The notes below the pieces were generated by a model. That model was not told the origin of the DNA. It did not search any database and saw nothing but the letters and a program-made list of their open reading frames with translations. A program made the position numbers and the translations under genes. From positions 13,149 through 77,148 of the forward strand of contig MU128924.1 in NCBI GenBank assembly GCA_014904985.1: a stretch of DNA of 64,000 nt, in the 5' to 3' direction. Positions 1 through 46,109 of this stretch are shown one piece after another. The first letter of the stretch is position 1. Each line of letters starts with the position of its first letter. The DNA comes from Hydnum rufescens UP504 (taxonomy: Eukaryota; Basidiomycota; Agaricomycetes; Cantharellales; Hydnaceae).

Positions 1-304
1 ACGACAGTGTGGTATATCCATGATTGGCGTGATCGGCTATCTCTATCCTCTGAGTACTCACCATGTTAACCAAGTCGGACATCTCGCTTAAATATTATAC
101 CAACGGCGATATCAGTGCGACAATTTCATTTAGAACTCTCTCTCTCCCATACACAGCATTCATCCTCCATCGTCAGTATCGCCCCCACATCGCCGAAGCT
201 ATCCGGAATCCCTCGCACTTCACACAATCCTGCCCGCTTTCCATCATCGACTCGATGACTGATAGCTGTCGAATTACCAGACGAACATACGTAGCGACTC
301 CGAT
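1..304. other. Unassigned left edge
   Basis: I recognise no gene here. Short open frames exist on both strands, but none shows a known motif or splice pattern. The conserved 5' end of a repeat element begins at about 305-318. The stretch could be the edge of a gene lying outside the window. Confidence 0.3.
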
Positions 305-1229
305 TAATGGACATTGCTCTAATTAGCCATCTCATGCCTTATTGACCTCTGACTCATTACCATCCTCTTCTTCAGGTTTTCCTGGACAATTTTTATTATA
401 TAGTATTTATTTATAATATACATGCTTGGTACTATTGTGTACTGTGCTTGCAGCACCAGCACTTGGCACTTCTTGAGTATTGGCAATTGCCAGTGTTGAA
501 TCTGCATCTTGCTTCCTATCTCCGTAACCACAACAAGCAACTGCCCAAAAAGGCAACCGCACGACCACGCACCTGCCACTGCGGGTGTGTGGTCACAAGG
601 TGAGTATTTTTTCTAGTAGATACAATGGCACAAAAAGAGCAGTGAAAGCTGCTCTTTTTGCGCTGCTTTGGAACATCTTACTAATGTCTCTTTATTTATT
701 TTAGATTGAGGCCTCGTCCAACACACGATGAGAGCCCAAACAGCCATGGGATGTATGGAAACACGACGCAGCAACATGACATCCGGCAACACGACACAGA
801 AACGTGATGCACAACAGCGCAACACAGCAATGCACCAAACAAAGACGTGCCAAACGAAGATGCAACCCATGGTAATGCGACACACAGCAATCCGACCTAC
901 GGCAACGTGCCAAACAAGCATGTGACCATGCCAAATGAGGCCCCCAGGAACCACACACCCGCCACAGCAGGTGTGTGGTACTATATAATGTGAGTCCCCC
1001 CCAGTAACTACAGGCATGCAAAAAGAGCAGTGAAAGCTGCTCTTTTTGCATGGTTTTTGATTCTAACTAATTTAAAAATTTTATCTCGCAGGTCTCAATG
1101 CCCCCACAAATGAATACCGACGCAAAACCCCCATGCCCCCCCATATTGATGCCCAAATGACAGACATCCGTAGGAACCGCCATATGTACACGGGCTCAGT
1201 ACCCCACACCGCCACAGCCACCTTGGTCA
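305..1229 (+). mobile_element. Hairpin-module repeat element, copy 0 (3'-truncated)
   Basis: The first copy of an intron-bearing repeat family begins here with the 5' sequence also seen at about 4112-4310 and, inverted, at about 3894-4095. Two introns read cleanly on the plus strand: 600-704 (GTGAGT donor, TACTAAT branch, TTTTAG acceptor) and 990-1091 (GTGAGT, CTAACTAAT, CGCAG). A GC-rich hairpin precedes each donor (563-594 and 950-979), and an A/T-flanked hairpin lies inside each intron (about 628-663 and 1016-1052). The third exon starts at 1092. Its GC hairpin is cut in half at about 1229, where the opposite-facing 3' end of copy 1 begins. No conserved protein reads through the exons, so the transcript may be non-coding or decayed. 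The family is not one I know; calling it mobile is an inference from copy number and shared ends. Confidence 0.6.
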
Positions 1230-4095
1230 GTCATCTAAGCCTACCTAGTTAGGTACCACTTTTGGGGCAGATAATGGTACCTAAGTAGGTCCCATCACTA
1301 TTCTGGCTGAAATGGCCATTTTATGGTCTGCACCTTCTGGCTCAGAATTGGCCGAAATGGCCGAAAATTGGCAGAAACTGGGACTTAGAGAGCATCTCAG
1401 ACTTGCAGGACAGTGGGCCATGCGGGCTTATTGGGGATAATCACTGGTATTTATTATTATATTCCCCCCTCTGGTGTTTCATTTATAGTTATTTATTTAT
1501 TATCATTATCACTCACCCCAGGTGGGGGCTGTTTTCATTTGGCAGTCTCATGTTTTTTTATCAACTTATGTATTTATTTATTTAAAAATTCAATTAAAAA
1601 AACATACCACACCTGCCCTAGCAGGTGTGGTACCATCTGTTGCTTCCTTGAGACTTTGGATGGGGGGTCGTCCAGTGTTCAGATGTGGGTTCAGGGGCAT
1701 GTTGCTGAGGTGTCGGGCAGCAAAATATTAAGTTAAAAAATTCAAAGCAGCACAAAAAGAGCAGCTATTGCTGCTCTTTTTGTGCCACTTGCAAATAAAA
1801 ATCAAAATCAAAAAACAGACCTTTTGTACCACACACCCACTGAGGGGGCATGGTACTGGGCATTGCTGCCTTGGGGCTTGGATGGGGGCTTGCCTGGCTT
1901 GTCGGTGGCCATTTGAGCGGGCTTGGCTTGGCAGTTCACCATTGTGCGGGTCGTTTGGGGGTCACAGCTGTCTGTTGTCTTCATTTCAGGAGCTTCAAAT
2001 TCAATCCTAGAATTGAATGATAATGAACGTTAGTAAAAAAAATTCAAAGTGACGCCGAAGGGGCAGCTTGTGCTGCTCCTTTGGCATCACTGTAGATGTA
2101 GAAAGTTTAAAAAAAATACCTTGTAGTACCACACACCCACATTGGCGGGGGTGTGGTACTTGTTGTTGTCCGGGGTCATGTACCTTCAACTGCCGGTTTT
2201 CTGTACAGTTCTCGGGTGGGTTGGGGGGGTTTCGGGCACATACTCATTTGGGGGGAAGGAAGATCTAGAATACAAAAATTTGGATCAGTACAAGTTAACA
2301 CAACACAAAAAGAGCTGCCTTCGCAGCTCTTTTTGTGCCGTTGGGGGTGCATTACATTACATACCTTGTATAGAACCACACACCCGCTACTGCGGGTGTG
2401 TGGTTCATCTCTGTGTTTGGCACATCGTTGTTCACAGGGATGTTGTCGTTCTGGCAGGGCTTTGCAGGTCTTCATTTGCGGCAATACCTAAAATGAAAAA
2501 TTATTAGTTAAAAAATTAAAAGCGACACAAAAAGAGCAGCTTTCACTGCTCTTTTTGCACCGTTGGATATGGGAAAATAGCCTCCCTTAAATAGTACCAG
2601 ACGCCCGCCATGGTGGGTGTCTGGTTTGCATTGGTTTTTTGTTCAGCAGGGTTTGGTGGTGCGTTCATCGGGTTTTCTTTTGGCATGGCTTCAGTTGGAC
2701 TCTCGATTAGTAAAAAAATTCAAAGTGACACAAAGGGAGCAGCTTGCGCTGCTCCTTTTGTGTCATTGTACATATAGAAATCAAATAAAAAAATAAAAAC
2801 CTTGTAGGACCACACCCACTGAAGTGGGTGTGGTCCTTGGTTTGTACCGCAGTCATGCGGTTCGTACTTGGTATGGGGCTTGGTCGTCATGTTGGGGGTT
2901 TGAAGTCCCACGGGTTTTGTTTGGCGGGTCCATTGCCATTTTCGTGTGTTTGCTTGGTGGGGTCATGGGTTCAGACAACCTAAAATAACATATAATATGT
3001 TAGTAAAAGGAAAAAAGAAAAGCCACACAAAAGGAGCAGTGTACGCTGCTCCTTTTGCATGGTTATATGCTCACCTTAAAATTACCACACACCTGCCAAA
3101 GCAGGTGTGTGGTTCATCTCTTCATGTGGCACGTTGTTGTTCAGGGGTCCCCTTTGTGGGTGTGTTATCATTGTGGGGGGACTTGCTTCGTGGGTCTTCA
3201 GTCTTCATTTGTGACAATACTGTACCTAGAATAAAAAATCATTAGTTAAAAATAATTAAAAGCGACACAAAAAGAGCAGCTTTCGCTGCTCTTTTTGTGT
3301 TGTCGGGGGTACATATCAAGTATAGAACCACACACCTGCTACTGCAGGTGTGTGGTTCGTCTCTTCGTGTGGTGCATCGTCATTCATGGATCCCATTTGT
3401 GGGTGTGTTATTGTTCTGGGGGGTTGCTTCATGGGTCTTCATTTGTGGCAATACCTATAATAAAATAATATTAGTTAACAAATGTAAAGTGAGGCAAAAA
3501 GAGCAGCTTTCGCTGCTCTTTTTGCGTGGCTCCATCTATTGGGGGGAGGAGACTCACCTTACAGTACCACACCCGCCACAGCGGGTGTGGTTCCTGAGCC
3601 CACTCATTGGGCAGCCTGTTGTTTGTTTTGGTTTTGACCTGGAATAATAAAGGCTACATTAGTATAAAAATTCATAGCAGCGCAAAAAGAGTAGCTTGTG
3701 CTACTCTTTTGCGCTATTGTATCTACTGAGACAAAATGTACCTTATGACCACACACCCACATCAGCGGGTGTGTGGTCATGTGGTTGTGGTCATGCAGCC
3801 ATGGTTATGCACTGTTGCTGCTGCTGCTGTTGCTGTTGTGTCATGGTCGTGTGGTCGCATTTCTGTTCCTGGATGTGGCTGCATAGTTGCGAATTCAACA
3901 CTGGCAATTGCCGATACTCAAGAAGCGCCCAAGCACTGGTGCTGCAAGCACAACACACAATAGTACCAAGCATGTATATTTAAAATAAATACTATATAAT
4001 AAATATTTGTCCAGGAACACCCAAAGAAGGCAATGATAATGAGTCAGAGCCCAATAAGGCATGAGACGGCGAATTGCAGAGTGGATTGGGCCAAT
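1230..4095 (-). mobile_element. Hairpin-module repeat element, copy 1 (minus strand, about ten modules)
   Basis: Read on the minus strand from about 4095 to 1230, this copy has exon-like blocks of roughly 80-145 bp alternating with intron-like blocks of roughly 95-113 bp. Introns with good signals are 3741-3639, 3557-3455, 3074-2980, 2364-2265 and 2119-2007. Donors are mostly GTGAGT or GTATGT, with branch sites of the CTAAT/CTAAC type and TAG or CAG acceptors. Each exon ends in a GC-rich hairpin 5-11 nt before the donor, for example at 3748-3777, 3566-3591, 2374-2406 and 2128-2159. Each intron carries the A/T-flanked hairpin. Donors near 3317 and 2583 have lost the GT, and donors at 2800 (GTTTTT) and 1820 (GTCTGT) are weak. 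The 3' end at 1230-1300 matches, inverted, the tails at about 5660-5750 and 6140-6222. No intact protein frame was found. Confidence 0.62.
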
Positions 4096-4310
4096 TCCGA
4101 TGCGTAGAAGTGGCCCAATCCACTCTGCAATTCGCCATCTCATGCCTTATTGGGCTCTGACTCATTATCATCACCTTCTTTGGGTGTTCCTGGACAAATA
4201 TTTATTATATAGTATTTATTTTAAATATACACACTTGGTACTATTGTGTGCTGTGCTTGCAGTGCCAGTGCTTGGGCACTTCTTGAGTATCGGCAATTGC
4301 CAGCATTGAA
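3894..4310. repeat. Large near-perfect palindrome at a head-to-head junction
   Basis: Copies 1 and 2 of the hairpin-module element meet 5' end to 5' end. The two arms, about 3894-4094 and 4112-4310, are reverse complements with only scattered mismatches by eye. The innermost 26 bp on each side (4069-4094 and 4112-4137) match perfectly around a 17-nt spacer. The arms contain the conserved 5' region of the element, including an AT-rich stretch near the TATATAG motif. Palindromes of this size are prone to hairpin formation and deletion, so the join may be recent or may be an assembly artefact. Confidence 0.85.
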
Positions 4311-5756
4311 TCTGCATCTTGCTTCCATCTCTGCAACCACAACAAGCAACTGCCCGAAAAGGCAAGCACACAACCACGCACCTGCCTCTGTGGGTGTGTG
4401 GTCACAAGGTGAGTATTTTTTTTAGTAGATACAATGGCGCAAAAAGAGCAGCGAAAGCTGCTCTTTTTGCACTGCTTTGGAATTTTTTTACTAATGCACC
4501 TTTATTTATTTTAGATTGAGGCCTCACAATGAGAGCCCAAACGGGAACCCAATGCATGGGAATGTGACATGGCAGTGCAACGCATGGGAACGTGACATGG
4601 CAGCGCAACATATGGCAATGCAACACGGCAGCACAGCATATGGCAACACGACAGCAGCATGATGCATGGGAACGCAACACGGCAGCACAACGTACGGCAA
4701 CACAACACAGCAGCACAGCGTATGGCAACACGACAGCAGCATGACGCACAGCAACGCAACACAGCAGCATGATGCACAGCAACACAACACAGCAACCCAA
4801 CAACACGATATACAGCACCGCGCCAAATGAGGATGCGACCACGTCAAATGATGCACCAGGAATCACACACCTGCCACAGCAGGTGTGTGGTTCCATATCA
4901 GGTGAGTTCCTCCCCCCACTACCTACAGCCATGCAAAAAGAGCAGTGAAAGCTGCTCTTTTTGTGTGTTCTTTAATTTTTAACTAATTTAAAAGTCATAT
5001 CATCTAGGTCTTGAGTCTCTTTGCAAACGAATACCAATGCAAAACCCCCCACAACCCCACTTATTGATGCCCGAATGACAGGGCACAGAGAAGACCCATA
5101 TGACTGGTCGTATGGATGACCTGGAGTACACGGTCCCAGTACCCCACACTCCCACAGTGGGTGTGGGGTACTACAAAGGTATGTCTCTTTTATTTTTTTT
5201 ATTTCTTATTCTTGTGGCGCAAAAAGAGCAGCATAGGCTGCTCTTTTTGCGCTGCATTGCTGTTCTACTAACATTTCATCATTTATTTCTCTAGATTCTG
5301 AACCAGAACCCCCGTGAGCCCCCAAGCAGAACCTGCCAAATGAGACGCAGCAAACAATTACCATGAATGAAGCCCTGCAAATGAAGACCGACCCCTTTAA
5401 GGGAGTGCCCAAATGGAACTGACCCCACCCACTGCGGCAGGTGTGGTGGGTATATGCAGGTGCATGGCCTGCATGAACTATGCCCCCCCCTGTGGTGGCA
5501 AACCCCAGGGGGGGGGGATAATATGTATATAGCGTAATATGTATATAATAATAGTAGTAATAATAATAAATAGTAAACAAACAATAGTAAATAAATAAAT
5601 AATCTAGCACAGCCATGGATTGGCCAATAGATGGCCAAAAAAACTGAATTGGAATGGCTTGATTTCAGCTGTAAGGTCTGGGGGACCTCTTAGGTACCAT
5701 TTTCTGCCCCAAAAGTGGTACCTAAATTAGGTCCCCTATGTGACTGACCAGCCTGA
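4112..5756 (+). mobile_element. Hairpin-module repeat element, copy 2
   Basis: This plus-strand copy has three well-formed introns: 4409-4514 (GTGAGT, TTACTAAT, TTTTAG), 4902-5007 (GTGAGT, TAACTAAT, ATCTAG) and 5179-5294 (GTATGT, TACTAACA, CTCTAG). The GC hairpins lie at 4372-4403, 4862-4892, 5140-5172 and 5424-5456, and the A/T hairpins at about 4434-4473, 4930-4966 and 5216-5253. The second exon (4515-4901) contains an imperfect tandem repeat of CAACA/GGCA-type units. The last exon runs without a further intron into a tail with G- and C-runs, an AATA microsatellite and a terminal inverted repeat of the GGACCT...AGGTACC type at about 5677-5738. It ends near a GACTGACCA motif that recurs at about 6212 and, inverted, at 1230. 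Confidence 0.62.
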
Positions 5757-6222
5757 CCCGGGCAAACTCCCGAATACAAATCCGCCAAATGACACCACTG
5801 ACGATAACCACAAACGAGCCTGTGAATGAAAACTGGCCCCCTTGAGGGAGTGCCCAAATGGAGCTGGCCCCCAATCAGGGCGTGTGAACCCCACCCGCTG
5901 CAGCGGGTGTGGTGGGTATATGCAGGTGCATGACCCACATCAACCATCCCCCCCTGTGGTGGCAGACCCCGGGGGGGGATAATATGTATATAGTGAAATA
6001 TGTATATAATAATAGTAGTAATAATAATAATAATAATAAATAGTAAACAAATAATAATAAATAAGTATATAATCTAGCACAGCCATGGATTGGCCAACAG
6101 ATGGCCCAAAAACTGAATTGGAATGGCCTGATTTCGGCCATATGGTTTGGGGGACCTATTAGGTACCATTTTCTGCCCTGAAAGTAGTACCTAAATTAGG
6201 TCCCCTATGTGACTGACCAGCC
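5757..6222 (+). repeat. Tandem duplicate of the element's last exon and tail
   Basis: This stretch repeats the order seen at about 5300-5756. It has an exon with a GC hairpin (about 5888-5915), a TATATGCAGG motif, a C-run and G-run, AATA microsatellites at about 6010-6045, and the GGACCT...AGGTACC inverted repeat at about 6150-6207. It ends in the same GACTGACCA motif. This looks like duplication of the terminal module only, possibly by slippage or a nested 3' fragment. The Gypsy sequence starts immediately after. Confidence 0.7.
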
Positions 6223-9080
6223 TGAAGGATTCATATGCCCTTCAACCTCTCTGGCAGGTGCGCCAATCCTATTCACGAAAAAGAAAGGTGGTGGGCTTCA
6301 CCTTTGCATTGATTACTGGGCACTCAATTGCATCATGAAAAAGAGTCGCTACCCCATCCCCCTCATCAATGACCTCCTTGATTGCCTTCACAGCACCACA
6401 ATTTATACAAAAATCAATCTTCACAATGGCTACTACAACATCAGAGTTACTGAAAGACACGAGTGGCTCACAGTGTTTCATACACAGTATGGTGCCTATG
6501 AGTGGCTCGTAATGCCAATGGGAGCAGCCAACTCCCCAGCATAGTTCCAGTATTTCATGAACGACTCATTTCAGGATATGGTGGACCTGTTCATCATTGT
6601 ATATCTTGATGACATACTCATCTTCTCCAATTTGCACAAAGAACACCATGAACACATTCGCCATGTACTGCAATGACTCCACAAAAGGAACCTCGGCACC
6701 AAGATCTTGAAGTGTACCTTCCACACAGACACTATTGAGTACCTCAGCATCATCATCACCCCCTGTGGCATCCAGATGGACCCTACAAAATTCAATGTGA
6801 TCCTAAGTTGGCCCACACCCACCTCAGTAAAAGAAGTCCAGTCATTCCTAGGCTTCGTGAACTTCTATTGCTGCTTCATCACAACCTACTCAGACCTCAC
6901 GCACCCCTTAATCCATCTTACAAAAAAAGATGAAACCTTCATATGGAATGACGAGACCCAACAAGCTTTCGAAAGCATCAAAAACACCTTCATATCAGCC
7001 CCCATCCTCTGCCACTTCGACCCCGAATTATGCATCATTGTAGAAACTGATGCATCCAACTACACCATCACCACAATCTTGTCACAAATTGATGAGAACA
7101 ATGAAGTTCAACCTGTCATGTTCTGCTTGTGATCAATGCAAAGTGTGGAACTAAACTATGACATCCACAACAAAGAACTCCTCAGGATCTTCAACACCTT
7201 TTGCACCTGGCAAGCATACCTCAAAGGCACCACTCACACAGTTTCCATCATTATGGACCACAAAAACTTGGAGTACTTCACCTCCATGAAACTCCTCACT
7301 TGTTGACAGGCTCGATGGTTGGAATACCTCTCCTCCTTTGACTACATCATCATATATCGACCAGGACGACTCAGAGGGAAACCAGATGCCCTCACAAGGC
7401 ACCCCAACGTTTATCCACCTGAACAAAACAAAGTATATGCAACCACAAACCCACAAAACCTTCAAGCGATCATTCATGATGCCAAGCCCCTTGACTTGGA
7501 CACAGCTCTTAGCATGTACTTATGAGCAACACTCAATGATCACCCTCTCAACTCTGAAATGACTCTTGCACTGATTTGTGAAGGCACTCACAATGGCACC
7601 CTCACAACACAAGTGCACAAATGCATTGGGACCACCAAAGGTGACTCAACAGCCCCCCCACCCTCTTCTCACTCTCAGAGGATGTGACATTGCTGCTGCA
7701 CAAAGGACGCATCTATGTCCCTGACTATTGTGATCTCCACCTCAACATTCTTCATGCTTCACACAATCACCTCCTCATAGGCCACCCAGGCATTCACAAG
7801 ACCATCCAGCTCATCACACAGAAATACTACTGGCCAGGACTAACAAAAACGGTCAAGGCATATGTATGATCTTGTGTCATATGTGCTCATGCAAAATCCT
7901 CACACCATGCCACATACAGCCCATCATATGCACTCACACAAAATCCTCGCACCACACCACATACAGCCCCCTCAAATTCCTCTCCATTGCTGAATGACCC
8001 TGGAACTCAATCACGATGGACTTCATCACCAGACTCCCACCCTCCTCCTCATTCAACTCCATCCTCATGATCATTGACTGATTCATGAAGATGGGTCTCT
8101 TCATCCCCACAGTCATGACACTTCCTGCAGAAGGACTCACTGACCTAGTCATCAATTGGGTTATATCCAAACATGGTACACCTGCCAACATCATCTCAGA
8201 TTGTGGCTCACTTTTCATTTCCAACTTCTGGAAATCACTTGTGAAGAGACTCGGCATCAAACTCAACCTCTCAACCACATATCACCCTGAGACTGATGGC
8301 CAAACCAAGCACCTGAACCAAATCCTCAAGCAGTACTTGTGAATTTATGTCAACTACCTGCAAGATGACTGGGCGCTACTCCTCCCTCTCACAGAATTCA
8401 CATACAACAACACTGAGCATTCTGTGACAAATGTAACACCCTTCTTTGTGAATAAAGGCTATCACCCCAACCTCAAGATCAACATTGAAGCAGTGCCTTT
8501 GACCAAGGCCAACCAAGCCACGCTTGACCTTCACAACATACACAACCACGTTCATGACCAACTCGTGATTACACAACAACAAAATGAACAGCAAGTAGCT
8601 GGATCACAACCTCTTTTCCCCACTCTTGACATCAGCGATCAAGTATGGCTCAACACACACAACATCAAAACAAAGCAACCATCAAAGAAACTTGACCACA
8701 AGAAACTCAGTCCCTTCCCAGTCACCGAGAAAGTTTCCACACATGCATATCACCTTGGCCTCCCTCACGCCATGAATCAAATCCATAACATCTTTCATGT
8801 GCAACTACTTGAACCTGTTCACCCCGACCCTTCCCAAATCACACCCAACCACCTCCCCCACTGATTGAAATCAACAGCGAACTTGAATACAAAATCACAG
8901 AAATCATTGACAGCAAAATCAATTGTCACCACTGCAGTAATGGCTTAATCTATCACGTGCAATGGTCCAGCTATGAGCATACCAATGATGAGTTCAGCTG
9001 GCTCCCAGCCGCAGAACTTGCAAATGCACAAGAAGCAATAACAGACTTCCATCATTCACACCCCGAAAAACCAGGATGAG
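6223..9080 (+). pseudogene. Ty3/Gypsy chromovirus pol, decayed and lacking its 5' half
   Basis: The reading order is that of a Gypsy polyprotein. Reverse transcriptase comes first (a KKSRYPIPLINDLL segment, then YLDDIL at about 6601), followed by RNase H (a TDAS-type segment near 7050), an integrase zinc-finger region (about 7740-7890) and the integrase core (about 8010-8340, with HGTPANIISD and YHPETDGQTKHLN). A chromodomain-like C-terminus lies at about 8880-9060. The gag, protease and 5' LTR are missing because the element starts abruptly at the neighbouring repeat. The coding frame carries about ten stops. Most are TGA where the family has an arginine CGA codon (about 6674, 7130, 7303, 7523, 7868, 7996, 8078 and 8339), consistent with C-to-T change at CpG. 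Two frame shifts lie near C-runs at about 7660 and 8855. The copy cannot encode an active polyprotein. Confidence 0.9.
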
Positions 9081-27060: not shown

Positions 27061-30000
27061 ATGACTATCAGTGACCCTGAACGCACCCCGCTAATCCAAA
27101 ATGAGCCCCCTACCCCCTTTCCATGGCGCCCTGCATCAGTTCTTTTCATGCTCACTCTAGTCCAACCCCTGGCGTTTGAGCTCATTTTCCCCTTCATCAG
27201 TGAGGTTTTGTTCGTGTAATTTGTCGAGTCTCACAGAGCTTCCTAAGTCTCCCCTTAGACCAGATGCTTGTTGAGCTAGGGGTCGTGGACGATCCCGAAA
27301 GAGTTGGCTTCTACTCCGGTTTTATTGTCCGTGTTTTCTATGAGCTGCGGGTGTGGCCTGCCTCTCACTTGGTTGGTATCAACGAATCTTACGTAGGAAT
27401 CCATTTTCGGCTGCATGAGTTTTCTTGCGAGTATGTACAGTCTTTGACCGGCCACTGAACTCTACCGGTCACTGAATCAAATCATCATATCTCTATGAGT
27501 ATCAAATAGAATTGTTCTGTTCCTTTTACATCATGTAGAGGTATTCTCTAGTACTTGATGTTCAAAATTTGAAGGAGATCCAATGTGTGGTTTTCGAGAA
27601 CGGCAGCGCTTAAGGCTTCAAAATGATGATTTCAGCATCCACCAACTTTAAATCACCTCCCCCCCATGTCTGCCCTTGCCCAATTGGTCCCAAATCAGTT
27701 GTCTACACCGTAGACCACATGTCCTACTATAAATCTCCTTATGGGTGCAAGTATTGTTTTGATGTGGGAAAGGGTGGAAATGGGAAAATTTTAATCTCGG
27801 ATAAAACCTGCTTCTTCCTCATCATTGCCTTCCCCGCCAACCCTAATTATCCTCGAGGTACCTACTATAAATGACAAAATCCGCTCTATCTCAAGAACGG
27901 AAGGCCCATATTATCACACGGGAACGAAATGCAAGACACCAACGGGCGGCAGATGCATATAGGGATGCCCTGAAAAAAGGCACGTCTTGAGGGGGGGAAA
28001 TGTCCAAGCCTTCGCTCCATAGCAATAAAGCATGGTGTTGACCCAGGGACTCTTCGGCGCCATGTGGATGGTGGGAAGACCATCGGTGAATCAAACGAGG
28101 CAAGGAGCCATCTCAGCCAGGCAGAAAGCGAAGTGCTCATCTCATTCATCCTGAAAATGGCTGATCGAGGCTTCCCATTAACGGTGCCAAAGATTGCGGA
28201 CTATGCACTCCAAATTGTGCATAAGAACCACCCAGACATTGCAAAGCTTGGTGTGAATTGGGCTCGCCGCTTCGTGACCAAACACTCCGACCGCCTGGCT
28301 TCTCTTTGGAGCTCTGGACTCGACACTGTCCGGGCAGCTGCAATCAATCCAGAAAATCTCAAGCACTATTGGGATATATTAGGTGGTGCCTACGACAAAT
28401 ACAAACCCCGCACCCCAAACATTTATGGCATGGACGAGAGTGGCTATCCAATGGGGGGGAGTGAGTGGGAACGTGTGATTGGTCATAAGGGTACAAAGCG
28501 CCAGAAGCAACGGCGTGATGGTGACAAGGAAAATGTAACTGTACTTGCAACCATCTGTGCTGATGGTACCTCTGTTCCTCCCACCATCATATTCAAGGGC
28601 AAAAACTTTATGAAAGATTGGTTACAAGAAAATCCCCTTGATGCTTCGTGTGTATGGTCCCTCATACCTGATGATTTAGTGACATCAAACCTCCCTCTAC
28701 AGGTATTGTTGCTCCGCAAAAGGGTGGACTGCAAATGAAATTGCCCTTGACTGGCTCAAGTACTTCGAGGAAAAGACACGCGAAAAGTTACTTCACCCTG
28801 GGGAATATCGGTTCCTGCTTCTGGATGGCCATGTTTCCCATGAATCTATTGATTTCATCGACTTCGCCGACAGTCATAACATTGTCGTTATTTGCTATCC
28901 ATCACATGCGACCCATGCCCTCCAAGGACTCGATGTCGTGGTCTTTTCTGTGGCAAAGCGTGCATGGAACACCGCTGTTCAAGAGTACCAGCAAGAGACT
29001 GGCTATAAAATCACAAAAGGAGTGTTCCTCAAGGTTTACGGAAAGGCTCACTTGAAGGCATTCACCCAAGAAAATATACTTGCGTCCTTTCGAAAGACCG
29101 GTGTCCATCCATTCGACCCTACTGTCATTACGCCGGAGCAGATTGCCCCAAGTCTCGAGCTGGCTGCAACAGGGTCGTTGCCGGTCGACCCCCCATCACC
29201 TGTCAAGCGCTTGTTGGGGACATTCCGTGAGGCTCGGGCCAGCACTTCACAAGTGACGGTCATACCTGGAGAAACCACCACCGATCAAGCCAATCCCTCT
29301 CCTCAGCCCACCAATACACCTGTCCAGTTTGCTGAAACCGAGACAAGCACTGGCCAACTCATCATTGACCCTCAGCTACAAACTCCGAGGACACCTACCC
29401 ATTTGCGTGACGTATTCACCTCATCCTCGGCAAATTTCCTTTTCAGCTCATCTCCACTCAAATCATCATCCTGCTTACCACCAAGGATATATCAAAAGCA
29501 TGGCCCAATCCCCTCTATTGACTGGAGCTGTATTACGAGCCCACCAAGATCGAGATCCGAACGTACTGTACGCAAGCTTCTGGAAGCAAACAAACATTTG
29601 CGAGACAACCTCCACACTGCCAAACAATCCCTAGATGCTTACCAGGATGCTGCGGATGTCGCAAATGCACAACTGGCTTTGTCAGGAATGTATCTAGATC
29701 GGGCACGAGAACAATTGGCGCATAAGGAGAACAAGAAGGAGAAGAGTGGGATTCGTCTCCGTGGGGACGGCAAGGCACAAGTCCTAACTGATGCCCAACT
29801 GCGCGAGGCCTTCCGACAGGCACATGATGACCGCGAAGCTGTGCGGGATGCAAAGGAGGTGCGGGCTCAACGGAGATCCCAAGCAAAGCACAAGAAGATG
29901 GAAAATCGTACATTCAAAAAGGAACGGGCCGCAGTGTGGGAGAAGACAAAGGCTGCCAACGAAACTACAGATAAGGCATGGAAGGAGGAGTGTGCAAGGT

Positions 30001-32327
30001 GTCGGGCAGAAGGTATTGGTCTGCCACCTCGCCCAATTATGGCAATGCGGAAGGACGTGTGGGCTGCATTTGATAGAGCGCATGATAGGGAAGGGTTGGA
30101 TAATGCCTCGGGTGATCCTCCGGAGGCCAACAGTGACGGTAGCAGCAGTTCCGAGAACGATTCAGGGGGGGAGTGAAGGGCTCGGATAATGCCGGGAAAA
30201 TGATTCAGTGAGTGGTAACGGGAAAAATCATAACCCCCAGACCATAAACCTTCGTATAACCTCAAATCTAATCCAACACAGTATTAAAGTCACATTGTAC
30301 AAATTGAGACACCACACCACCCTCCAGTACAGTTTATGAAGGAAAAGAATGAATACAAAAGTAGAAAATGGCAAATTGAAATATTTGATTCAGTGGCCGG
30401 TCAAAGACTGTATTAAAGCTATTCTCTATTATATCCTTCGGCTTAAATAGCCGACTGTTTCCCTGTAGTCTTGCCTAGTAGCTACGCATCTGACCGCATT
30501 GGCCGCAAGCCTGTTATCCTTGGTGGTACGGCAGGCTTAGCGGTCTCCATCGTTTCGTTCGGGATGAGTCGGGCTTTCTCAAGTTTAGTACTCAGTCGCT
30601 GTATCGGTGGAGCCCTTGGTGGTTCCTTCACGTAAGTGATATATAGATTGGTAGATTGCGCGGTTTGCGTAATAATGCGACTAACACTCTATCTGATAGT
30701 GCCATCAGGACAATGGCGGGGGAGATTACTGATCGGTGTGTTTGCTGACCTCCACATGGCACGTCCTTTCTTCGGTTATGACTCAAAGCGTCCCTCTCCC
30801 CTCATACAGATCAAATCAAAATATTGCCTACAGTGGAATAACTATCACCTATCGCCTGGGCCAGATCATCGGTCTTCCGCTGGGCGGTTTCCTCGCTCAC
30901 CCCGAACGGCAATTTCCAAACACATTCTTTGACGGGCCATTCTGGCAGAAATATCCTTTCGTTTTACCGTGTTTTGTTGGCGCAGCGTTTGCACTATTTG
31001 CCGTAGTCTTGGGCAGTTTTTTTTTAGAAGAGGTACGTTGTGGCACCCCTTCATCAACTCTTAAGTTTAACCGTTTGCTATCGATAGACTCTCCCGTCTA
31101 AAATACAAAATAGAAAGAAGCTCGCGACGTCTCGCACAACATCTGTGTCAACTGTAGTGGATGGAGAGCTTTCTCTACCTCTCCGCCGCGACCAAGACCA
31201 ATACGGCATTATAAACGGGAACCACAATCAGCCGTCAAATTCGAACTCAAAGCTCGATCACCGGTCCCCACCGGAGGAAATCCCTTCTCTATTCTCAGTG
31301 CTGACAAACGACATCGTGGCTCTGATGATTTCGAATTTCGCCATGTGCTTAGCCAGCGAAATGTTATTTACGTTGTATCCTTTATTTGCTTTCACACCTA
31401 TTAAATCTGGTAGGTCTGTGTCTCTCCTTTGGTCCACGGTCTTTATTAACTGTAATGTTATCAAGGTGGATTAGGCTTCAATGAAGCCCAGATTGGCGCG
31501 TATCTATCCGTTCGTGGCGTGATGCATATAGCTATCATGTTCCTTTTCACACCCATGCATCGCTGGATCGGACGTTCGTCTGCCCTTCGACTTTATCAAC
31601 TTTCCATGATGATGTGGCCATTGGTGACGCTTTTCTATCCATTGATGAACTTCCTTGCTAAACGGGAGGGCGCATCCGGATCACTATTCAATGGGGTTAT
31701 GTTTGCTTTCTTCGTTGTTTGGAGGTATATCCAACTCCAAAATAAATGCACCGCTCTTTTGATCCTTTCTTATCACTCAGTTTTGCTGCATTCTGCTGGA
31801 CGTGAGCAACGCAAAATTTTCTCGATCCGATCTCAGTAAAGCCTGGCCCTGAGATGTATTCATTCCCCGTCAGATGTACGGGCATGATGACCAACGATGC
31901 ATGTCCATCGCCTGCAGCACTTGCAGCTGTCAATGGTCAGCGCCTCCAATCTCACTTCTCATCCCTGATCTACATTTCTTGCGGGATGTAGGTGTTATCC
32001 AAATGTCGACCATTCTTTCCCAAGCTACCGCTCCTGCTTTTTCCACTTCTCTCTTCGCGTACTCTATCAAGAGTGACCTTGCGGGGGGTCGCCTCGTTTG
32101 GGTGGTCTGCTTTGTCATCAGTGCGTCTCGCCTTTCTCTTTTATTGTAATCACTCGTTTCTCAGGCGGGGCTGCCTCATAGCATGCGCTGGAAGCATACA
32201 TTCGTTGTTCCTGAATGAAGCGACCAGCGATTGGCGGATGGAATTGGGGGATCACAGTGAGACGTCTAGTCTTTCAGGATCCGCATCGACGGTGATTGCG
32301 GACTCGACAACCGGCGTTGCCAACTGA
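27061..32327 (+). CDS. MFS transporter, copy 2, with a pogo transposon in intron 3
   Basis: This is the paralogue of MFS copy 1 with the same twelve-exon plan. A 10-bp insertion disrupts the copy 1 start context, but an in-frame ATG at 27061 gives MTISDPERTPLIQNEP, so the protein can still begin. Exons 1-3 lie at 27061-27435 and the remaining exons at about 30470-32327. Between them, a pogo element (27438-30410) has inserted a few bases past the donor of intron 3, leaving GTATGTA intact. Motif A (ASDRIGRKP), the glycine-rich TM5 segment and the C-terminal DWRMELGDHSETSS are all present, and I saw no stop in the exons. If the roughly 3 kb intron is spliced, a transporter of about 530 aa results. 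If not, the transcript would be truncated after about 80 codons. Confidence 0.78.
27438..30410 (+). mobile_element. pogo-family DNA transposon (2,973 bp)
   Basis: Perfect 22-bp terminal inverted repeats begin CAGTCTTTGACCGGCCACTG. They are flanked by TA target duplications at 27436-27437 and 30411-30412, the hallmark of the Tc1/mariner-pogo superfamily. The empty site is visible in MFS copy 1 (about 20672). The left end also contains a second, imperfect copy of the inner TIR (ACCGGTCACTGAATCAAAT at about 27463). One plus-strand transposase gene fills most of the element. Perfect ends and a nearly open transposase suggest recent insertion. Confidence 0.92.
27871..30176 (+). CDS. pogo transposase (DDE superfamily endonuclease)
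   Basis: This is the transposase of the surrounding element. From 27871 the N-terminus reads MTKSALSQERKAHIITRERN, then a helix-turn-helix segment (SLRSIAIKHGVDPGTLRRH). A second DNA-binding region, SEVLISFILKMADRGFPLT to WARRFVTKHSDRL, resembles CENP-B. Catalytic acids appear in NIYGMDESG, FLLLDGHVSH and HALQGLDVVVF. A 55-bp intron (28648-28702) is needed to join NPLDAS to GWTANEIALDWL. The C-terminal third is Lys/Glu/Arg-rich and ends in an acidic Ser-rich tail. One extra A in the A-run at about 27973 shifts the frame before the first helix-turn-helix; without it the gene is about 749 codons. The protein is either inactive through one indel or intact with a base-calling error. Confidence 0.85.
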
Positions 32328-40712: not shown

Positions 40713-43700
40713 TCATTCAACATCCAGTGCTTGACATTGTGCCCAGTCCTTCCCACACTTAAGTTGCTGAAAATCAATCTGGGTTTTGCGAGACCCCATA
40801 ATGTGGCAGTTGGGGTGTTCCAGGGATGCACGGTATGCTGCAGGGACCCAGAGGATAAGCTCATCACTAGGTCCCAAAATCCACCCATCCTCAAGTTGAA
40901 AGGAGCATGGTGGGAGTGGGAATAGATGGATAGGATATTGGAGGATGTGTTTGGCCTCTGCAGTGGGCAACTGTGAAATTTTGACAGTATTGTCATGGGA
41001 GCTGGAAGTGATCTGTTTTCCATTGGGCAAGAAAGCAGTGGAGTGGATGTCACCATCATGCCCCTGGCCAACAGTTGGACCCATGTCCACATTCCAGAGA
41101 CGTAGGGTCTTATCTGAGGAGCCAGAGGCAATCTGCTTGCCATCAGGTGAGAAAGCAACAGACCGGATGATATCATCATGTCCCTTCATTGGGTGGCCCA
41201 CACTCTGTCCTGTCTCCACATTCCAAAGTTGTACAGTCTTGTCCTCAGAGCTGGAAGCAATCAGCTTGCCATCAGGTGAGAAAGCAATGGACAAGATGGC
41301 ATCATCATGCCCCTCCATTGGTTGGCCAATGCTTGCACCTGTCTCCACATTCCACAATTGTATAGTCTTGTCTGCAGAGCCAGAAGCAATCTGCTTGCCA
41401 TCAGGTGAGAAAGCAATGGACCAGATGTCACCATTGTGCCCTTCTATTGGCTGGCCAATGCTTGTGCCTGTCTCTGCATTCCAGAGTCGAATGGTCTTGT
41501 CCTTGGAGCCAGAAGCAATTTGCTTGCCATCAGGTGTGAAAGCAATGGAGTTGATGTCACCATCATGGCCTTCCATTGGCTGGCCAATTCTCACACCTGT
41601 CTCCACATTCCAGAGTTGTATGGTCTTGTCCTCAGAACCAGAAGCAATGTGCTTGCCATCAGGTGAGAAGGTAATGGACAAGATGGCACCATCATGCCCC
41701 TCCATTGGCTGGCCAACACTCACACCCATCTCCCCCATCTCCACATTCCAGAGTCGCACAGTGTTGTCATTGGAGCCAGAAGCAATCCACTTGCCATCAG
41801 GTGAGAAAGTAATGGTCCTGATGCCATTATCATGTCCTTCCATTGGCTGGCCAATGCTTGCCCCTGTCTCAACATTCCAGAGTTGTATGGTCTTGTCCTT
41901 GGAGCCAGAAGCAATGTGCTTGCCATCAGGTGAGAAAGCAATGGACCAAATATTCTTCTGCCCCTCTATTGGCTGGCCAACACTTGCACCTATTTCTGCA
42001 TTCCAGAGTCGTATGGTCTGGTCAATGGAGCCTGAAGCAATCTGCTTGCCATCAGGTGAGAAAGCAATGCAGTAGACATCACCTGCATGCCCCTCCATTG
42101 GCTGGCCAACAGTTGCACCTGTCTCTGCATTCCAGAATTGTAGGGTTTTGTCTGCAGAGCCAGAAACAATCTGCTTGCCATCAGGTGAGAAAGCAATGGA
42201 CCAGATGGCATCTTCATGCCCTTCCATTAGCTGGCCAATGCTTGCACCTGTCTCCACATTCCAGAGTTGCACAGTCCCACCACTGGAGCCAGAAACAATG
42301 TGCTTGCCATCAGGTGAGAAAGCAATGGACCAGATGCCATCATGTCCCTCCATTGGCTGGCCAATGCTTGTTCCTGTCTCTGCATTCCAGAGTCGTATGG
42401 TCTGGTCTGAAGAGCCAGAAGCAATCTGCTTGCCATCAGGTGAGAAGGTAATGGCCCCAATAACATCATCATGTCCCTCCAGTGGCTGGCCAATCCTGAC
42501 ACCTGTCTCTGCATTCCAGAGTTGTATGGTCTTGTCCTCAGAGCTGGAAGCAATCTGCTTGCCATCAGGTGAGAAAGCAATGGACCAGATGCAACCATCA
42601 TGCCCTCCATTGGTTGGCCAATGCTTGCACATGTCTCCACATTCCACAATTGTATGGTCTTGTCCTCAGAGCCAGAGGCAATCTGCTTGCCATCAGGTGA
42701 GAAAGCAATGGACCAGATGAAACCATCATGCCCTCCATCAACTGGCCAATGCTTGCACCTGTCTCCACATCCCACAATTGTATCATTTTGTTGCTAGAGC
42801 CAGAAGCAATCTTCTGGCCATCAGGTGAGAAAGCAACAGATAATACCGCAGAACGATGTTCCAAGATCAGCTGAATGTGTGGCCAGTGCTGAAGTTGTCC
42901 CTGAACAAGTTTTGCAACTCCTGGGAATTGACCTTGCCACTGCTGATATAGGAGGGATGATGTGGGAGCAAATGTGAGACCGGACAGGTAGATGTGAGGT
43001 GTGCTTGTTCTGATGGCAGCTCCGAACATGGAGATGAATTGCATTGCATCTCGTCGCAATTCAACAAGGTCCGCAGGAATCTGGGGAATCATGTTAGGAA
43101 TTGGCCCACAGCTTCGGCATATTGAACCTCTGCTTACATGAGAGGTACTAAGTGAGGCTAATGCAATTTGAGGGGAGCTCTGTGTAAGGCTCATCACTTC
43201 CAACCAATGTAGGAAATCCTTCCGAAAGAATGAGTCCACATGGTCTGGAGGAATCTTGGCGGTAGGCGTTGCGGACACATGGAAACACCAGTATCGACAA
43301 GCATAAGACAGATGATTAGGGATGTGCTTTTCTACAAGACCAGTGATGTTATGGATGTCAACATTACGAAGGAATGACGTCGGGAGTTGACAGATATTGA
43401 ATGTCAAGCTCTGGTCCATCACGCGGAAGCATGCCATGGCCATCCGCCAATTCGTTTCTCCTTTGTCGATGTAGAAATCTATGTTATGGTCCGGGTTACA
43501 CAAGAAATCGCGATATGATGTGTGGAGAGGTACAATAGGCTCATGGTCGCTGTGTGTACCGCTAAGGAGCGAGGCAAGATGCTTCACGATTCGTCGTTGC
43601 AACTCCATGTCATCTGGAGTGAGGATGGAGTCGGGCGGAACTAGGTGGACAAGAGTATGCAATGATAAAGGCTCCTGAGCGCATATGATTCGGCCGACGA

Positions 43701-46109
43701 TTGACTTGACTCGTTTTACTGCTATCTCATGCAATGGATTGCAGTGCTCCCTCATTACGGTCCTATAGAGCGCATAGAGCCCTTCGTCACTACGCAGCAC
43801 CGTCCCAATCTGGTCCCGCGGGTCGACGCCAGCATCACTATCACTGGAAATGAAGCGACAGGCAGTAGCAGCCCACTGAAAGGAAGTCCCGGCCATCTGA
43901 ATCAACGCATCCACCTGCTTCTGGTACTTCTCCTTGCGGAGTTCATTCACGTTACGGAGTTCATTGTGCACATACTTCGCAATATCGCGCGAGGTCTGAT
44001 CAGCGGGGATGTCGTCCACAAGCATGATGTCAACCCCAGGTGGCACAGGAGACTGCAATGCGTCCTGAATATCGCGCTCATATCTCGAAGTGACTACGAA
44101 TCGAAGCGACGAAGGAAGCTCTGAGGCTCGCTTTGTTAGAATGGCGAGGGCATCGGTGCGAGCCGTAACGTCCCCGGACTCGTCAAACGCGTCAATGAAA
44201 ACGATGGTCTCCCCCACGGCCTTATCATCCTTAAATGATGCAACGATGAAGTGGCGGAACTGCAATTTGCAGTTCTCGGTTGTTCGTATTGCGGTGTCGT
44301 CCTTGACAGCCTCGAAAAGGCGCTGCTTTCGGGGCTTATCCAGGTCGGCGAGGTCTCGAGCGATCGTACTGAAGAGGTTGGTGAGGTTTGTGAGGGGCTT
44401 ATTTTTGTCGAAGCCATAGTACGACCCCTTGCGTTCAAGTTCCTGAACACGTTTCGCACATGAGCGAAGGATCGACGATTTCCCCGCCCCCGCCGTGCCA
44501 CACAACCAAAGCACACGAGACGATTCGTTGGACCTCAGTGGTATTGAGCTGCTCGGATCAGACGATGGCGTGTCCGCTCCAACAGCCCAACGCACTATCG
44601 CGTCGATGATCTCGGTACGCGTGCCTGTCAAACACCCTTTATCCAGATCGTGGTGGGCCGCTGGGGCATATTTTAGTTCGCTGAGCACCTCCCACTCACC
44701 TGTAGACTATCTTAGAACACAGGTGATGACCGAAGACACAAGACACACTTACGGACTTCCGTTACAACGTCTAAGACGCGATATGTAATGACAGAGCATT
44801 GTATGTTCGCATGATCAATCAGATTCCGTCGGAGTGTATCAAGGGTCGCCTTGTAACTCTCGATCCGTGTATCCACAAGAGAAATCGTGTACTTTCTGAC
44901 ACGGCTGACTGCCGCCCACGCTGATCAGTCTCGGAGTGGGGAGAGCATGCGGGTTTCCACGTACTGAAGGACTTGTCCCTGCAATAGTCCCGAATGAAAT
45001 ACGCACATTCCATTACTTGCCGCAGTATTTGGTTGATGATGTCTTGATCGATCTCCGAGCGTTTCTTCAACTCCTCGGCTTCGTCCCCGAAGGAGCAACT
45101 ATCCGCCATCATCTGCACTAAACCCAGGACCTTCGCGTCTCGCTCACTCTGCGCGGCAGCGATCTAATGGAACACCAGTCAGACAGCATCCAGATACAAA
45201 CCTTGAACGCAGTACCCTATAGACTGCTGAGACAACGCCCCATGCTAACTTGATCCAAGGGTGAGCCTGCTCGGAAATATTTCTTAGTGGTTGCGGGGCA
45301 CAGGTGATTTAGGATGAAACATGCCTCAGCGACGATATCAGCAACCGTTACAAGAGCCCCGAGGCGGCTCAACAACGACTGCCATGCGTTGACTTGGGTT
45401 GTGATTTCTGCTACAAGTGGGGCGGCAGCTTGAATGGGGTCATTGACAACAGCTAGTCCGGCACCTAGCTGCTCGGCAGCCTGGTTCGCATTCTCGACAA
45501 TATCTCCAGTGGATGCGAGAGAGGATGCCACGAGGAGTGTAAGGTCCCCGACTTTTTTGTTTGCGCCATCTTTCAAATCGAGGCGTATCTCTGCAGGCAT
45601 AAAGACCGGGTGTGAGCGTGGCCCATCCTCACATAAACATCAGCGGGTTCACCTTTTTCTGTCGCGGAAGAGAGATCCAAACTACATGATGCAATGAACC
45701 GCCCCGGATAGCCAAGACGGCGCTCGAGCAAAGCTATATCCAGGCTGTAATTAATAGATGTTGGAATAACCAGGCTGCCGAGTGGCTGTCATCAGCCGTG
45801 ATGAAGTATATGTGGGTGAAGTAGACCTACAACTGATCTCCGAAGGGATCTTTCCATGTCACGGCATCCTGTGTTCCCTGGATGTATTCTGACTTTGGCG
45901 AACGAAGTCCAATGATGCTAGGACGGGATTGAATTGGTATGTCAAGCCGATATCGTTTTGAGATACGTAGAAGATGGGTGGTGCATCTGGCCTCTGACGC
46001 AAGGGCCAAATCGGTTGGTTAGATGCGAATTGTGCATTGAACCAGATGGCATACCTGAAATATGCACATGTCGCATTTCCGCAGGTTTCGGCGGGTCTTT
46101 GGACGCCAT
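40713..46109 (-). CDS. NLR: C2-NACHT-WD40 STAND protein
   Basis: STAND NTPases of this kind act in fungal non-self recognition and programmed cell death (HET-E/NWD type). Exons: 46109-46055, 45993-45831, 45774-45653, 45590-45250, 45164-44965, 44908-44753 and 44699-40713. A C2-like N-terminus (SPKSEYIQGTQDAVTWKDPF) leads into a helical region with CAYFIRDYCRDKSF. The NACHT domain has Walker A GTAGAGKSS and Walker B TIVFIDAFDES. About 15 WD40 repeats of 42-46 aa follow (consensus SIAFSPDGKQIASGS), many nearly identical. The C-terminus ends GSRKTQIDFQQLKCGKDWAQC. Three single-base shifts occur: an extra T in a T-run at 45118-45121, and a missing G (minus strand) at about 42602 and about 42732 at repeat junctions. 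Corrected, the frame closes at about 1,674 aa. It is either a recent pseudogene or misread homopolymers. Confidence 0.9.

Follow-up and report, generated by a model that had tools for sequence, protein, structure and literature searches.

The analysis concerns a 64,000-nt stretch of the Hydnum rufescens UP504 genome (contig MU128924.1, positions 13,149 to 77,148), which as a whole we call the window. Close to its left end lies a mobile element, here named the hairpin-intron element, built from repeated modules that combine two classes of hairpin with the signals of introns. A first-pass annotation had described a hairpin array at 305-5760, and a scan requiring a stem of at least 11 bp and a loop of 3-10, with one mismatch tolerated, agrees: 30 hairpins start in positions 1-6000 of the window compared to 4 in the other 58 kb. 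What that annotation overlooked is that the array forms the body of a transposon with terminal inverted repeats (TIRs) and target-site duplications (TSDs), which in other copies also has a central palindrome.

The copy in the window extends from 1219 to 5755, with the B terminus CACCTTGGTCAGTCA at 1219 and the A terminus ...TGACTGACCAGCCTG at 5755. The element is arranged in the order B terminus, B arm, centre, A arm and A terminus, and the two arms are divergent. The B arm (1219-4097, minus strand) is a run of exon-intron modules read from 4097 down to 1219, while the A arm (4107-5755, plus strand) comprises three exon-intron modules, a terminal exon, an AT-rich stretch and the terminus. Both termini contain a GGTACC hairpin (B-type, 1219-1300, minus strand, inner border approximate; A-type, 5676-5755, plus strand). 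Near the centre, the two arms mirror each other as long inverted repeats. At the locus L046 the centre is a palindrome with a 60-bp stem, flanked on both sides by TATATATA, and similar centres are found at many other loci. The window copy lacks this long central palindrome and has in its place a palindrome at 4068-4136, where the arms join.

The module pattern had been reported on both strands, and we can now assign the strands to the two divergent arms of one element, with fragments of further copies on either side. To the left lies a truncated A-type arm of another copy (321-1218, plus strand, start approximate), cut at the B terminus and containing predicted introns at 600-704 and 990-1091. 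To the right lies the 3′ end of a further A-type arm (5756-6224, plus strand). A more distant copy, L031, has the same layout in a series of modules whose exon sequences are different.

Read outwards in each arm, a module consists of an exon, a GC hairpin, a GT donor, an A/T hairpin, a CTAAY branch site and an AG acceptor. The A arm has three predicted introns on the plus strand, A1 (4409-4514, GTGAGT ... CTAAT ... TTTTAG), A2 (4902-5007) and A3 (5179-5294). Predicted introns of the B arm, on the minus strand, are found at 3639-3741, 3455-3557, 2980-3074, 2265-2364 (with CTGAT replacing CTAAY) and 2007-2119. All ten introns of the first-pass annotation, including the two in the truncated arm, start with GT, end with YAG and measure 95-116 nt; the branch motif is CTAAY in nine and CTGAT in one.

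The intronic A/T hairpin of module A1 (4437-4472, plus strand) has a GAAA loop. Further A/T hairpins lie at 4934-4963 and 5217-5252 in the A arm (plus strand) and at 3685-3710, 3492-3527, 3263-3302, 3028-3057, 2726-2765, 2528-2557, 2304-2337, 2050-2089 and 1750-1785 in the B arm. Exon A1 carries a GC hairpin at its 3′ end, at 4373-4402 (plus strand). Counterparts of this hairpin are at 4859-4894 and 5138-5172 in the A arm (plus strand) and at 3745-3780, 3564-3593, 3325-3358, 3084-3113, 2806-2837, 2596-2625, 2373-2406 and 2125-2160 in the B arm.

The A/T hairpin has 14 copies, in line with the about 14 of the first-pass annotation, and GC-type hairpins number about 16, counted by eye with weak ones included, against about 17 claimed. 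A fixed period of 200-230 bp does not hold: the spacing is 188-302 in the minus-strand run and reaches 757 elsewhere. A hairpin in every intron and at every exon end was also too strong a claim. Ten of the 14 A/T hairpins lie in introns with two borders, while at the four near 1750, 2530, 2740 and 3280 the consensus form of the donor, the branch or the acceptor is missing in this copy. No donor follows the GC hairpin near 5422.

Some module runs depart from this layout. In the distal B arm of L046 (1514-1894), five consecutive GC hairpins are separated by AT-rich spacers with CTACTTAGTAG-like words and no A/T hairpins. At L093 (340-440), a module donor is preceded by other sequence in place of the GC hairpin, perhaps marking a recombination border. 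Near the end of the A arm in the window (5483-5560), a C8/G8 hairpin precedes an AT-rich stretch (TATGTATATAATAATA) in which transcripts could end.

The hairpin array is the body of a TIR transposon. The window copy has the inverted ends CACCTTGGTCAGTCA and CAGGCTGGTCAGTCA, for which we searched the genome allowing up to 3 mismatches over 28 (A) and 23 (B) bases. With the window included, there are 302 A-type ends (CAGGCTGGTCAGTCA; 165+137) and 354 B-type ends (CACCTTGGTCAGTCA; 167+187), compared to none for the reversed control of either. The plus-strand arm used as a DNA query finds at least 246 matching stretches in the same genome. The exact hairpin cores are more numerous still, at 2201 places for the A/T hairpin and 1799 for the GC hairpin (reversed controls 0). 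The right boundary of the A arm is sharp with unique flanks beyond it, and only 1 of 78 non-CpG columns of the A terminus varies among 10 copies.

Perfect TSDs of 7-8 bp flank 13 of the 21 two-ended A/B copies; one more matches at 7/8 bases and seven are without. Among 15 fetched A/B end pairs, perfect duplications are found in 10 (six of 8 bp, four of 7 bp) and none in 5. Judged by the coordinates of their ends, the ten with duplications measure 2.6 to 6.1 kb. Further duplicated copies are L048 (7 bp), L095 (8 bp) and L100 (8 bp), while L046 is the copy that matches at 7/8 bases. L095 measures about 9 kb, including an assembly gap and a diverged stretch. No duplication was found for the window copy or for L049, nor in any of four pairs of same-type ends. 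The family thus combines inverted terminal repeats with duplications of near-constant length (7 or 8 bp).

The window also provides an empty site, at 6531-6580 (plus strand), for the element at C66:155531-161319. The joined flanks of that copy, with the 8-bp duplication present once, match this site at 45/50 bases. The empty site lies inside stop-broken Ty3/gypsy-like pol remnants (6200-8861) with RVT_1, RNase H and a Tf2-1-like SH3 domain.

Two of the loci with ends of the same type stand out. L073 (C27:53200-54340) is a derivative of 1.0 kb in which both ends are of type B; it has GC hairpins, but no A/T hairpins and no TSD were seen. L080/L081 (C283:30414 and 35133) is an A/A copy, and the flanks fetched from its two sides are exactly reverse-complementary, which points to a large palindrome or an assembly fold-back.

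Elsewhere in the window, a DDE_1 transposase with a Tc5-type DNA-binding domain extends over two overlapping open stretches (27974-30176). A STAND-type gene, with an NPHP3_N-type nucleoside triphosphatase and a long run of WD40 repeats, is likewise spread over two overlapping open stretches (40713-44706, minus strand). For one protein of the window, the best match with a name is from Cantharellus anzutake (62% over 37% of the query), as would suit a host probably in Cantharellales or close to that order.

For the splice signals, we surveyed 214 A/T-type hairpins within 153 kb of loci, choosing the better strand of each by score; this sample contains some terminal hairpins missorted as A/T. The GC hairpin, donor, branch and acceptor occur in this order on the better strand at 159 of the 214, and on the other strand at none. 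Single features on the other strand amount to 8 GC hairpins, 4 donors, 17 branch motifs and 16 acceptors. GT donor, branch motif and AG acceptor, the signals of a spliceosomal intron, are therefore present in order and on one strand.

A set of 139 modules, preselected for carrying all signals, has a median intron of 106 nt, which is an upper estimate because the donor is probably mis-called in 33 of the 139, where it falls 2-3 nt within the GC stem. The branch motif is CTAAY in 130 of these modules, and the distance from branch to acceptor is 19-20 nt in 96. Base composition also follows the predicted borders, with 45% T in introns minus the hairpin compared to 12-13% T in exons.

Ten recent A arms (of 11; L005 failed the ends filter and was left out of the alignment) differ mostly by CpG decay, with C to T and G to A changes at 0.18-0.22 per CpG-type site compared to about 0.02 elsewhere. 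Outside CpG, the hairpins of these arms are more conserved than the other sequence (12/196 vs 114/805 variable columns, p = 0.002).

The stems also co-vary between modules, as the first-pass annotation had stated. We aligned 42 A/T hairpins from the window and from distant copies (4 of 46, with unresolved strand, were left out beforehand) and 28 GC hairpins (6 of 34 left out beforehand: one duplicate, four with a shorter stem in another register and one divergent), and compared them with 500 shuffles and with slid alignments. In the A/T stem, 92.5% of cells are paired compared to 86.4% when shuffled. Two-sided changes occur in 57 cells compared to 25.9, a level reached by 0/500 shuffles; they involve 11 of 18 pairs, and the slid controls give at most 16 cells. 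The GC stem has 90.8% of cells paired compared to 85.7%, and two-sided changes in 24 cells compared to 9.6 (0/500 shuffles; 6 of 16 pairs; slid controls at most 5 cells). The p-values are too small because the modules are related by descent. The number of GC-stem pairs with two-sided changes is not unusual (39/500 shuffles), and neither are further pair types, one of the five measures, for the two stems (77/500 and 76/500 shuffles).

Palindromic DNA can gain paired changes through repair, and strand-specific signs therefore matter more than pairing as such. GNRA loops cap 18 of the 42 A/T hairpins when these are read in the predicted sense direction and none of the 42 in antisense, suggesting selection on RNA. 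Among the 42 modules, G-U pairs outnumber A-C mismatches in the A/T stem by 53 to 25 (p = 0.01 against mutation bias). For pairs 14-18, counted over 21 lineages, the numbers are 27 and 3, and for the outer pairs of the 42-row set 42 and 20. The sense strand of the A/T hairpin has the more stable fold in 17 of 21 lineages, and with the loops masked the ratio is 18 to 2. For the GC hairpin, the sense fold is the more stable one in 17 of 23 cases (sign p 0.035, Wilcoxon 0.13). We read the intronic A/T hairpin as one that works as RNA, while the exonic GC hairpin could act as RNA or as DNA.

This strand evidence bears on an unlikely but substantial alternative, in which all the hairpins act as DNA, as internal palindromes serving transposase binding or forming cruciforms, and what look like splice signals are either incidental or left over from a coding ancestor of the element. 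The element is after all a DNA transposon, its GC stem has no overall strand bias, and GC hairpins occur without introns both in the distal B arm (the five of L046) and in the two-ended 1.0-kb L073. A function in DNA alone, however, predicts neither that donor, branch and acceptor keep strand and order at 159 of 214 hairpins, with none on the other strand, nor the 18:0 ratio of GNRA loops and the folding asymmetry of the A/T stem.

What the predicted exons encode was examined in the ten A arms. No reading frame is open in all ten in any exon, and exon 2 has lengths that cannot be divided by three. Individual copies do have a frame without stops in one exon or another, and in exons 3 and 4 this is so for up to 4 of the 10 copies. 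When the predicted introns are removed, the longest open reading frame (ORF) of an arm measures 67-214 codons, in a frame that differs between copies. ORFs of this length are reached by 1/100 shuffles for L009, 0/100 for L010 and 4-68/100 for the other eight arms. Variable sites display no codon-phase pattern save in exon 3, where it is borderline. Because no common frame is open and the frame varies between copies, the arms are probably non-coding.

Exons without a common reading frame, and one structured RNA per intron, also recall a small nucleolar RNA (snoRNA) host gene. The exons would then be dispensable, and the selected product would be the intronic hairpin, freed after splicing as a small stable RNA. 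The GNRA loops and the stronger covariation do belong to the intronic stem. On the other hand, the exonic GC hairpin is conserved too, a hairpin of 36-43 nt is short for a snoRNA, and window positions 1-6300 match no Rfam snoRNA family at E up to 1. We consider this account quite unlikely.

The same Rfam search gives its strongest matches, all below gathering scores, to microRNA families at the 4068-4136 palindrome. Together with the 60-bp stem at the centre of L046 and the long inverted repeats of the arms near the centre, they could indicate a source of Dicer products, with small RNAs cut from the stems or the long palindrome to silence other genes or the family itself. That the array exists for this purpose is highly unlikely: the module stems, at 13-20 bp, are short for Dicer, and such a source would not need the two classes of hairpin to be confined so strictly, one to exon ends and the other to introns.

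The first-pass annotation also considered a factory of new introns. On an introner-like model, single modules would insert into host genes; every module does have all intron signals, and some introner families have TSDs and TIRs (PMC9860276), but here ends and duplications belong to the whole element, the three isolated exact A/T hairpins looked at (C2:623907, C4:85004 and C2:7606, a small sample of the 2201 places) all lie inside arrays, and two junctions searched as processed copies were not found, leaving this idea barely plausible.

The explanation we favour, with somewhat more confidence than doubt, is a TIR transposon that is non-autonomous and whose body holds two structured RNA units, each with several introns and probably non-coding, with splicing predicted from the arrangement of the signals. 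Of the possibilities raised in the first-pass annotation, a structured multi-exon repeat RNA thus fits best, given the ordered modules and covarying stems.

The body of the element consists of two back-to-back units around a central palindrome. Transcription would probably proceed outwards from TATA-flanked promoters beside the palindrome. Each resulting pre-RNA would contain several spliceosomal introns, whose signals are in place and whose removal we predict. In the pre-RNA, the A/T hairpin would fold and loop out about 36-43 nt, bringing donor and branch site nearer to each other. Removal of the A/T hairpin shortens the ten introns of the window from 95-116 to 57-80 nt, near the usual size of basidiomycete introns, and an intron of about 105 nt would accordingly act like one of 57-80 nt. 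The earlier suggestion that stems draw splice sites together stands as far as these lengths go, the effect itself being our inference. The GC hairpin, positioned just before the donor, would survive splicing, and the product would be a series of hairpins joined by linkers poor in T and rich in A/C. Module duplication probably expanded the arms.

Clean introns might, speculatively, shield the transcript. In Cryptococcus, transposon silencing is linked to stalled spliceosomes. Introns also strongly raise mRNA accumulation in that fungus (PMC3744415).

A more specific and tentative version, in our view improbable though worth stating, makes RNA structure and not protein the selected cargo. The element would be a divergent pair of non-coding genes. 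From their transcripts the spliceosome would free one hairpin per intron, often with a GNRA cap, and would string together one GC hairpin per exon, possibly as a self-made RNA scaffold or decoy that lets the element escape silencing or recruits a trans-acting factor.

Several observations weigh against the favoured explanation. A transcript is not obviously needed by a non-autonomous transposon. The window copy is probably dead, because its centre and several splice borders are missing. Outside CpG, the ten recent A arms do not conserve their splice signals significantly better than the sequence around them (3/44 vs 114/805 variable columns, p = 0.26), and the support for them therefore rests on their ordered presence across diverged modules. 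The search of the genome for two exon-exon junctions found no processed copies. A coding role keeps a foothold in the 2 of 10 copies whose ORFs are matched by at most 1/100 shuffles, and in the borderline codon phase of exon 3 (p = 0.05).

The stems raise points of the same kind. The statistical weight of the covariation is overstated by the common descent of the modules, and hairpin-templated repair could be another source of paired changes. Outside CpG-prone contexts, the G-U excess of the A/T stem in the 42-row set is just 11 vs 5, and for the inner 13 pairs it is not significant at the lineage level. The GC stem may act as DNA because it has no overall strand bias (G-U 19 vs A-C 15; 8 vs 1 outside CpG-prone contexts).

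Judged from their sequences, the copies seen are non-autonomous, since the ten A arms share no frame and no stretch of 150 codons in the 9-kb copy L095 is free of stops. The element would be mobilised by a transposase supplied in trans. The source of this transposase was not found in genome searches for KDZ and hAT transposases, which, together with L095 and L100, gave no transposase inside an element on comparison with about 100 listed ends of each type. KDZ transposase matches number at least 154. None of the copies examined contains a KDZ gene, other copies having been compared by eye among the matches listed. At L100 the element stops short of a KDZ gene, and the flanks of L050-L052 have no convincing terminus. 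The 90 matches to the hAT dimerisation domain were compared in position, by eye, with the listed ends alone.

Among the entries listed by the literature searches, none describes such an element, a non-autonomous TIR transposon family with structured, multi-intron RNA-like cargo. Non-autonomous DNA transposons are thought to need little beyond their ends. If a family of high copy number retains the order of its splice signals and the covariation of its stems although its exon sequence drifts, it would show that selection for RNA processing can act on a DNA transposon. The many copies also form an extensive natural collection of variant introns in which a hairpin separates donor and branch site, making the effect of intron structure on fungal splicing directly testable.

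Relatives were also sought in IMG/VR. Four contigs match the A/T pattern and none the GC pattern; each of the four has one terminator-like hairpin in phage-like sequence without a GC hairpin, and we rejected them as relatives. In these phage-like contigs (L096-L099) the A/T stem recurs as a terminator-like hairpin that is bidirectional, a convergent resemblance.

Among known transposons, the termini CAGGC and CACCT are unlike the usual hAT start. The TSDs of 7-8 bp recall those of hAT elements, which are 8 bp long, or 7 bp in hAT7 (PMC12730594). The same source describes Kyakuja, of the KDZ group, with 5′-CA..TG-3′ termini, 7 bp TSDs and no TIRs, and Zisupton with 8 bp TSDs. The hairpin-intron element resembles them in its CA..TG ends and TSDs of 7 or 8 bp, and differs from Kyakuja as described there by having TIRs; hairpin-intron arrays do not appear in the passages on KDZ elements consulted (PMC12730594).

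With introners, which can be non-autonomous DNA transposons (PMC9860276), the element shares repeated introns in a transposon context. It differs in that the introns looked at stay inside the element, 0 of 3 isolated hairpins lying in a host gene (a small sample). A snoRNA host gene likewise has non-coding, fast-changing exons and one structured RNA per intron, but the hairpin-intron element is mobile, its hairpins are short and single, a second hairpin stands at the exon ends, and no Rfam snoRNA match was found in the range searched. Galileo and other foldback elements come close in overall form, with long inverted arms containing internal repeats and a 7-8 bp duplication, which in Galileo itself is 7 bp. 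The arms of the hairpin-intron element are set apart from theirs by ordered splice signals and two classes of hairpin.

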